This document shows, one piece after another, positions 30,843 through 64,000 of a stretch of 64,000 bases of DNA. Made by a program: the position numbers and the translations under genes. This DNA comes from Sulfurovum lithotrophicum (GTDB lineage Bacteria; Campylobacterota; Campylobacteria; Campylobacterales; Sulfurovaceae): positions 1,860,001 through 1,924,000 of the forward strand of contig NZ_CP011308.1 of NCBI RefSeq assembly GCF_000987835.1. Direction: 5' to 3'. How positions within the stretch are numbered: position 1 is the stretch's first letter; each line of letters opens with the position of its first letter. The notes under the pieces are model-generated. The model was not told where the DNA came from, made no database searches, and was given only the letters and a program-made list of their open reading frames with translations.

Positions 30843-30988
30843 CTTAATAATATCCTGAGTGGTTTTGAAAAAAGATATTATATCTGATTTATTGTTTAAA
30901 ATTTGGAGATTAAAGAAAGTGAAGATTTTTTTGGTTTGCTGTAGTTTAAAAATGTAAAATAGATTATTTTGTTTGAGTTGTACTTAGA

Positions 30989-31046
30989 TTTGTGGGTTTG
31001 AGTAAAGGAGCTTACGAATAGTAAGTGACTGCACCCATCCCACAAA
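30989..31046 (+). ncRNA. structured element downstream of rplS, copy 1
   Basis: Outer stem TTTGTGGG / CCCACAAA (30989-30996 with 31039-31046); at the tip, GCTTAC / GTAAGT with pentaloop GAATA (31010-31026), closed by a G-C pair and a GA/GA internal loop (31008-31009, 31027-31028). Same plan as the copy near tsf (63174-63232). The non-Watson-Crick pair (G-T) is allowed on this strand. Whether it is transcribed is unknown. Confidence 0.55.
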
Positions 31047-31071
31047 GTTGAGTGCAAATCGAACAAAAGAA

Positions 31072-31431
31072 CTATTTTCTTCGAAGTTCTTTGATTCTTG
31101 CAGCCTTACCCTTAAGCTCTCTAAGATAGAACAGTTTCGCTCTTCTTACTCTACCTTTTCTGAGTACTTCGATACTCTCGATGCTGTCAGAGTAAAGCGG
31201 GAAGATTCTCTCTACGCCTACAGAGTTCGCTCCCATCTTTCTTACCATGAAAGTTCTGCCTGTACCCTGACCTCTGATCGCGATACAAAGACCTTCAAAG
31301 TTCTGTACTCTTTCTTTGGAACCTTCTTTGATTCTTACTGCCACTCTTACAGTGTCACCCGCTCTGAATTCGGGAATATTTCTGTTTTCCAATTGTGCTT
31401 TTTCAAAGCTTTCAATGTATTTGTTTCTCAT
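31072..31431 (-). CDS. rplS: 50S ribosomal protein L19
   Basis: 119 residues. [32 protein letters not shown] and [29 protein letters not shown] are L19 hallmarks. Last gene of the rpsP-khpA-rimM-trmD-rplS operon, three bases after trmD. Its stop codon is TAG, followed by TTCTT, as in the sequence after tsf. Confidence 0.97.
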
Positions 31432-63044: not shown

Positions 63045-63173
63045 TACATACCTTTGGATAATTTTGGGTATTTTAACATAAAAAGAGGAAATGGATGATT
63101 GGTTAGTAGAAAGATAGAATTATGACAAATATCTATTTTTGGAAAATATGATAGTCTTCTGATTTATTGTAGA

Positions 63174-63232
63174 TTTGAGGGTTGTTGTTTGGGAACATAC
63201 AATAAGTATGTGACCAAACAAACTCCTTCAAA
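63174..63232 (+). ncRNA. structured element downstream of tsf, copy 2
   Basis: Outer stem TTTGAGGG / CCTTCAAA (63174-63181 with 63225-63232, one G-T), middle stem TTGTTTGG / CCAAACAA, GA/GA internal loop (63193-63194, 63212-63213), tip stem ACATAC / GTATGT with pentaloop AATAA. Same geometry as the rplS copy, with compensatory base changes. Confidence 0.55.
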
Positions 63233-63255
63233 GATGCGATGAAGCAGAAGAACTA

Positions 63256-64000
63256 TTATGCCATTTGCTTGGCTACTTCTGCGGCGAAGTCTTCTTCCTC
63301 AACTTCGATACCCTCACCTACTTCAAGTCTTACAAAGTGTACGATCTCAGCTGAACCACCGGCTGCTTTCGCTTTTTCCTGTACGTATTCAAATACCGTC
63401 TTGCTGTCATCCATAACGAATTTTTGATCAAGAAGACACTGTTCCTGATCAAGTGTTGTGTTGTCAGAGATAAATCTTGCCAGTTTTCCAGGAAGGATCT
63501 TGTCCCAGATCTTTTCAGGTTTGCCTTCTGCAGCAAGTTCTGCTTTAAGAGCCTCTTCTGCAGCAGCCATTACTTCATCCGTCAACTGGCTCATAGAGAT
63601 GTACTGAGGAACATTCTTTTCAGTTTTCCCCAAACGTCTAAGCTCTTCATTCTCTGTTTCGATCGCTACGATTCTACCTTTGGTCTCGTCTTCAACGAAC
63701 TTAGGGTCAAAATCTTTGTAAGAGAGTGTAGATGGTGCCATCGCAGCCGCATGCATTGCTACTTCTTTAAGAACCGGCGTCATTGCTTCCGCTGTTTTCG
63801 CTGAATCACATTTCGCTTCGATAATAACACCATTCTGTGCATTTGAGTGAACATAACCGTTTACCGCAGTCGTTTCATCTCCAACGATCAGTGCTGCTCT
63901 TCTTACAACAAGTTTTTCACCGATAATGGCGATCTGCTGAGAAAGGAAGTCAGCGAACGGCTCACCATTGATAGTAGAGTTGTTGATCGCTTCCGCGTCA
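63256..64000 (-). CDS. tsf: elongation factor Ts, N-terminus outside window
   Basis: Guanine-nucleotide exchange factor for EF-Tu. 247 residues are visible in one frame to the window edge, including the dimerisation and C-terminal modules (KLVVRRAALIVGD, YVHSNAQNGVIIEAKCDS, KEVAMHAAAMAP). Its stop TAA is followed by TAGTTCTT, as after rplS. Confidence 0.95.
   Translation of the reverse strand, partial: DAEAINNSTINGEPFADFLSQQIAIIGEKLVVRRAALIVGDETTAVNGYVHSNAQNGVIIEAKCDSAKTAEAMTPVLKEVAMHAAAMAPSTLSYKDFDPKFVEDETKGRIVAIETENEELRRLGKTEKNVPQYISMSQLTDEVMAAAEEALKAELAAEGKPEKIWDKILPGKLARFISDNTTLDQEQCLLDQKFVMDDSKTVFEYVQEKAKAAGGSAEIVHFVRLEVGEGIEVEEEDFAAEVAKQMA

Follow-up and report, generated by a model that had tools for sequence, protein, structure and literature searches.

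Two minus-strand genes in the analysed window (64,000 nucleotides of the Sulfurovum lithotrophicum genome) are each adjoined at the 3' end by a palindromic element: rplS, encoding the 50S ribosomal protein L19 (31072–31431; NCBIfam TIGR01024, E 9.5e-47), and tsf, encoding elongation factor Ts (63256–64000 and extending beyond the window end; NCBIfam TIGR00116, E 1.3e-96). At rplS, the full hairpin as modelled occupies 30965–31071 on the plus strand and scores 110.8 bits (E 1.6e-26) with R1, a covariance model built from six Sulfurovum copies that include this one. The tsf copy occupies 63150–63257 on the plus strand, with its right edge overlapping the tsf stop codon, and scores 99.3 bits with R1, which was also trained on it. 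An independent model, R2, matches 30973–31063 (E 2.3e-8) and 63152–63255 (E 5.2e-7), and these are the only R2 matches in the window. The same two sites are the window's only exact matches to the core pattern. The initial annotation had placed a hairpin at 30989–31046 (plus strand), which is the inner 58-nt portion of the rplS copy, and another at 63174–63232, and we confirm the positions and stems of both.

Each site forms a single imperfect hairpin of ~107 nt, with the stop codon of the host gene (rplS or tsf) in its outermost helix. Read on the plus strand from the tip outward, a pentaloop is followed by a 6-bp stem, a G.A/G.A tandem, two base pairs and, in most copies, a second tandem. After these come a variable stem, one of 8 bp (TTTG..CAAA) and a third tandem (GTA-GA-TTTG / CAAA-GA-TG), which in the rplS copy of this genome is GA/GT. 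Next come 9 bp, one purine-purine mismatch and 10 bp, and outermost a helix in which the adjoining gene takes part with its last codons and its stop. The tip stem, a G.A tandem and a G.T pair make up the core, which is GGAGCTTACGAATAGTAAGTGAC at 31007–31029 (plus strand) in the rplS copy and GGAACATACAATAAGTATGTGAC at 63192–63214 (plus strand) in the tsf copy, and forms the centre in common with Escherichia coli ERIC. At rplS, the two halves of the outermost helix are AAAATAG (30956–30962, plus strand) and CTATTTT (31072–31078, plus strand), the latter being the other-strand reading of the rplS stop and last codon. Because the 9 bp, the mismatch, the 10 bp and the stop-codon helix all lie outside the inner stem, the element comprises ~107 nt plus ~7–10 bp. 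The 8-bp stem that the initial annotation regarded as outer is thus real but internal to a longer hairpin, and the sequence it found repeated after both stops, TAGTTCTT, is indeed shared but is the right arm of the outer helix. Its GA/GA tandem mismatch is also present, but a hairpin can have as many as three such G.A tandems. When folded alone, both inner hairpins are more stable than all 200 dinucleotide shuffles on both strands, with z scores at the two sites of −5.2 and −7.2 for the plus strand and −4.0 and −5.3 for the minus strand.

ERIC has served for decades as a typing target and has been regarded as a parasite of enteric genomes. According to reviews, it is a palindromic element, 127 bp long and non-autonomous, that occurs in Enterobacteriaceae and Vibrionaceae (PMC2229807, PMC10969869). 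We consider that both sites in the window are very probably non-coding palindromic repeats of this type, i.e., members of the ERIC/IRU superfamily. The central sequence GGAGCTTAC..GTAAGTGACTG of ERIC, IRU and RU-1 is the same in the Sulfurovum element, the shared centre being GGAG-CTTAC-N5-GTAAG-TGACTG, and both are imperfect palindromes of 100–130 nt, intergenic and dispersed in multiple copies per genome (here 11). A 44-nt ERIC core, comprising both classical primer sites and the sequence between them, is present in 5395 of 5426 E. coli genomes, and this 44-nt match confirms the sequences of the primers, ERIC1R and ERIC2. The conserved inverted repeat at the centre, where the primer sites lie, reads GGAGCTTACATAAGTAAGTGACTG in E. 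coli and GGAGCTTACGATAAGTAAGTGACTG in one Sulfurovum copy (L056). The core pattern AAGGAGNNTACNNNNNGTANNTGACTGA, with 19 fixed bases, was searched in 257 Gb, for which ~2 chance matches are expected at equal base frequencies, and was found in at least 118 stretches, most of them within long hairpins. Among the matches listed are Bacteroidota, Clostridia, Gammaproteobacteria, Actinomycetota, Campylobacterota and others.

The link to ERIC was examined further with R2, which was built from 29 copies of Bacteroidota, Clostridia, Arcobacter and Actinomycetota, leaving out Sulfurovum and gammaproteobacteria; as the training copies were picked for core and flank motifs, the model favours both. On the held-out E. 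coli, R2 recovers three ERIC loci (E 6e-8, 6e-7 and 1e-6), and over the whole Sulfurovum genome it gives nine matches, every one a known copy. The initial annotation knew of no RNA family of this shape, but the shape is that of the known ERIC palindrome, and the held-out model connects E. coli ERIC with both sites. R1, for which only Sulfurovum copies were used, gave no match as good as E 0.01 at the E. coli ERIC loci. GGAG and TGAC are nearly invariant in the 29 cross-phylum copies, and two motifs that lie beyond the core used for the search, A[AG]GGC (mostly 23–24 nt before it) and AACG (mostly 15–17 nt after it), occur jointly in 35 of 71 non-Campylobacterota copies compared with 2.1 in shuffled sequence. 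The flank motifs of E. coli ERIC, AAGGCG and AACGCAG, are common to the non-Sulfurovum members at comparable places, whereas the Sulfurovum form lacks them and has GTAGATTTG/CAAAGATG in their place. Rfam, at gathering and relaxed thresholds, returned only weak matches to microRNA-like hairpins and other unrelated families, and no family matched at its gathering score. We found no report of ERIC outside gammaproteobacteria in the open-access literature, and since the search covered open access only, this is weak evidence of novelty. The kind of element is already known; as far as our searches reach, its multi-phylum range, the Sulfurovum form, the strict 3'-end placement and orientation at orthologous housekeeping genes, and the way the element covaries with the stop codon of its host are new.

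As for copy number, the two copies in the initial annotation are both real but belong to a set of 11 in the 2.2-Mb genome, all intergenic, as found with R1; BLAST and pattern searches recover eight. R1 also has matches in 22 of the 24 other genomes listed under the same genus. Sulfurovum-genus genomes hold more than 130 copies, and 137 distinct copies were retrieved for analysis, with a main length class of 105–111 nt and further classes of 126–130 nt and 154–158 nt. A class-wide search revealed additional copies in other families of the same order, and the pattern search has matches in 30 of 397 genomes of the class, while the reversed pattern has none in those 30. The covariance search over Campylobacterota that the initial annotation proposed thus yielded both further copies and conservation at orthologous genes. 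One candidate copy (L010) was rejected as a chance match within a gene.

The placement of the element is highly regular. In 130 of 137 copies the right-hand gene lies on the opposite strand with its 3' end at the element, usually within ~12 nt of the edge, and the few exceptions include several spurious ORFs that overlie rplS. Of 133 left-hand neighbours, 108 are on the minus strand. Orthologous hosts recur, namely rplS (17 copies), ilvC (15), fusA (15), porB (10), tsf (9) and guaA (9), as well as typA. In the present genome, the hosts checked are ilvC, rplS, tsf, fusA, guaA, a PorB-type subunit, a MurF-like ligase and typA, with a cytochrome c1-like protein and a cytochrome c as further hosts, and one copy (L023) follows a tRNA-Arg gene. 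With simple ORF calls, an opposite-strand right gene also accompanies 19 of 24 copies from Bacteroidota, 16 of 20 from Clostridia and all 9 further ones from Campylobacterota, where the distance from stop to core is typically 35–50 nt, but orientation is mixed in gammaproteobacteria (7 of 13 by the same ORF calls). Of two E. coli sites inspected, the ybhJ/ybhI copy fits the orientation rule and the pgk/fbaA copy does not. The Sulfurovum form, ~107 nt long and located at gene 3' ends in one orientation, differs from ERIC in these respects.

The earlier description of a conserved, covarying hairpin is borne out by the ilvC and rplS ortholog groups. In a sequence-only alignment of 15 ilvC copies, standard pairs occupy 92.4% of the cells, compared with 38–52% when the partners are slid; the covariation score is 0.451 versus 0.169 ± 0.013 for shuffled data, with no shuffle attaining the observed value, and 120 cells show changes on both sides versus 42.9 ± 5.0. 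Kinship among the sequences inflates such covariation counts, whereas the slid controls preserve it. The picture is the same for the rplS orthologs, with a covariation score of 0.374 versus 0.212. Here, the outer helix also tracks the stop and last codon of the host, such that TAG occurs with CTATTTT and AAAGTAA with TTACTTT. The 8-nt outer arm is exact in 6 of 19 own pairs versus 9 of 228 swapped combinations, or in 14 of 19 versus 69 of 228 if one mismatch is allowed. Taken over all copies, flank complementarity scores 13.9, compared with 10.4 when flanks are exchanged between genes.

Long imperfect palindromes are prone to template-switch correction, and the outer arms mirror the gene end, both of which would agree with a neutral relic, i.e., functionless palindromes kept tidy by such correction between the arms. 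However, the G.A tandems and the single purine mismatch stay uncorrected at fixed places across phyla, and the element is retained at orthologous genes in most species, and we therefore regard a neutral origin of the pattern as improbable.

The initial annotation noted that G-T pairs on the plus strand favour a plus-strand RNA or single-stranded DNA. The better plus-strand fold is confirmed, with standard pairs at 92.4% versus 85.5% on the minus strand for ilvC and 91.2% versus 80.4% for rplS. Exceptions are G.T rather than A.C by 98 to 46, for pairs defined by Watson-Crick majority only, and one G.T pair adjoining a G.A tandem does not vary in either ortholog group. This bias is moderate, and strand-biased mutation could be an alternative source. 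The better plus-strand pairing and the invariant G.T pair nevertheless suggest that the plus strand is, or at one time was, of importance, perhaps in the form of single-stranded DNA, with plus-strand RNA as a candidate only. A plus-strand transcript has no visible source, since 95 aligned left flanks contain no conserved promoter-like signal and the left-hand neighbour is mostly on the minus strand. For the same reasons, and with no Rfam relative, a small RNA gene in its own right on the plus strand, antisense to housekeeping-gene 3' ends, is highly improbable, even though the plus strand is more stable and compensatory changes are seen.

Another explanation is that the plus-strand ERIC hairpin, as single-stranded DNA, is recognised by an enzyme of transposition or replication that acts in trans, with the G.A tandems and G.U pair as recognition marks, and that the stop-codon position reflects target choice and purifying selection. 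Besides the better plus-strand pairing, the invariant G.T beside a G.A tandem and the near-invariance of GGAG/TGAC across phyla, this would account for the several copies per genome, the tandem copies and the similarity of up to 86% between copies in the same genome. Yet copies lie at the same orthologous genes genus-wide and covary with the host stop codon, which indicates a job in place rather than mobility alone, and no enzyme has been linked to the element; the repeat around the Y1 transposase gene at L014 is another one. We therefore judge this explanation to be rather unlikely. To our knowledge, no partner enzyme of ERIC has been described, and neither a transposase nor a target-site duplication (TA in the case of ERIC) was found for the present element. 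Likewise, no recent empty site was found, and the element ends merge with the pairing gene end.

Similarities are noted with the GTAG-tagged REP elements that are associated with RAYT/Y1 transposases, as both are palindromic and extragenic, and GTAG often precedes the inner stem in Sulfurovum. However, GTAG is not kept as a conserved feature in other families or phyla, and the genome's own Y1 gene has another repeat. A RAYT/REP identity was rejected, as none of three Y1_Tnp loci carries the element. One of these loci (L014, G000:C1 ~916642–919977) has a 156-aa Y1-type (IS200-like) transposase gene in a classical RAYT/REP arrangement, with several copies of the palindromic repeat GTAGGGTGTGC / GTAGGGTGTGCAATTGCACACCCTAC in its flanks. 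Another (L013) has a 261-aa Y1-type transposase gene between 29-nt inverted repeats (1085–1113 and 1900–1928; 93% complementary), an arrangement that resembles a complete small insertion element.

Like an intrinsic transcription terminator, the element would form a hairpin in the transcript directly after the stop codon, but it is 2–3 times longer, has conserved mismatches and lacks a clear T-run; T enrichment beyond it is mild (0.44–0.46 versus ~0.37). With a strict hairpin-plus-T-run rule, no terminator scored at the element-bearing rplS ends, and the same rule passed only one of eight element-less ends. At the ends of at least two element-less rplS genes, L351 (identified by script) and L341 (by eye), there is an ordinary hairpin with Ts after it. 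The idea that the element entered the loop of an existing terminator is not supported, as the element-less rplS ends are without the same stem. Between 44001 and 64000 of the window, there are 22 hairpin-plus-T-run sites compared with 16.9 expected from shuffled sequence, which is not a clear enrichment and hints that simple intrinsic terminators are uncommon in this genome region.

In Yersinia, ERIC is co-transcribed, and at 3' ends it exposes an RNase E site in a manner for which orientation is crucial (PMC2229807, PMC10969869). The geometry in Sulfurovum is similar, with the hairpin directly after the stop codon and an outer helix that a terminating ribosome would open, but no match to RNase E/G is found in this genome. 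The route of Yersinia therefore cannot apply unchanged and would require another nuclease step.

Family identity, fold, covariation, position, orientation, vertical retention and stop-codon pairing are directly supported. Taken as a whole, our reading is that an ERIC-type repeat was probably inserted behind stop codons in ancient times and kept as a hairpin at the 3' end of housekeeping transcripts. A mobile palindromic repeat would have settled directly behind stop codons, in a single orientation, before the Sulfurovum radiation, and most copies would have been inherited vertically since then. The element would now be a 3'-end structure of the host mRNA, a long terminal hairpin with the last codons and the stop in its outermost helix, that may replace a simple terminator or a protective 3' stem-loop. 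Each terminating ribosome would then open the outer helix, which could tie transcript 3' ends to translation. The function as a 3'-end hairpin, which we deduce from sequence comparison, is in itself plausible, if a little short of probable. The fold of the minus (mRNA) strand is weaker, with G.A tandems replaced by T.C and the invariant G.T by A.C, and this fits poorly with a purely mRNA-level function.

More tentatively, ERIC may be an old family, not an enterobacterial one but spread throughout bacteria, whose strand-specific fold (G.A tandems and an invariant G.U) is read by some conserved factor, and that in Campylobacterota, Bacteroidota and Clostridia was adopted as a standard transcript 3'-end structure, its outer helix formed with the stop codon and coupling transcript ends to translation. 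If ERIC spans phyla and is located preferentially behind stops in one orientation outside gammaproteobacteria, its spread, its recognition and its 3'-end role become testable by comparison. In Sulfurovum, essential genes, rplS, tsf and fusA among them, thereby have a candidate element at their 3' ends.

Two variations on the single-copy layout were observed. At L057, L076, L098 and L109 (G009), two to three tandem copies, spaced by about one element length, lie behind one gene, and the genes concerned include ilvC, a murF-like gene and guaA. At two further loci, L218 and L334 (the latter being rplS in G018), the ERIC-type core has a second palindrome, GATACCCC..CGCTAAAGCG..GGGGTA, inserted within it or next to it, and at least the 155-nt copy represents a nested insertion of this kind.
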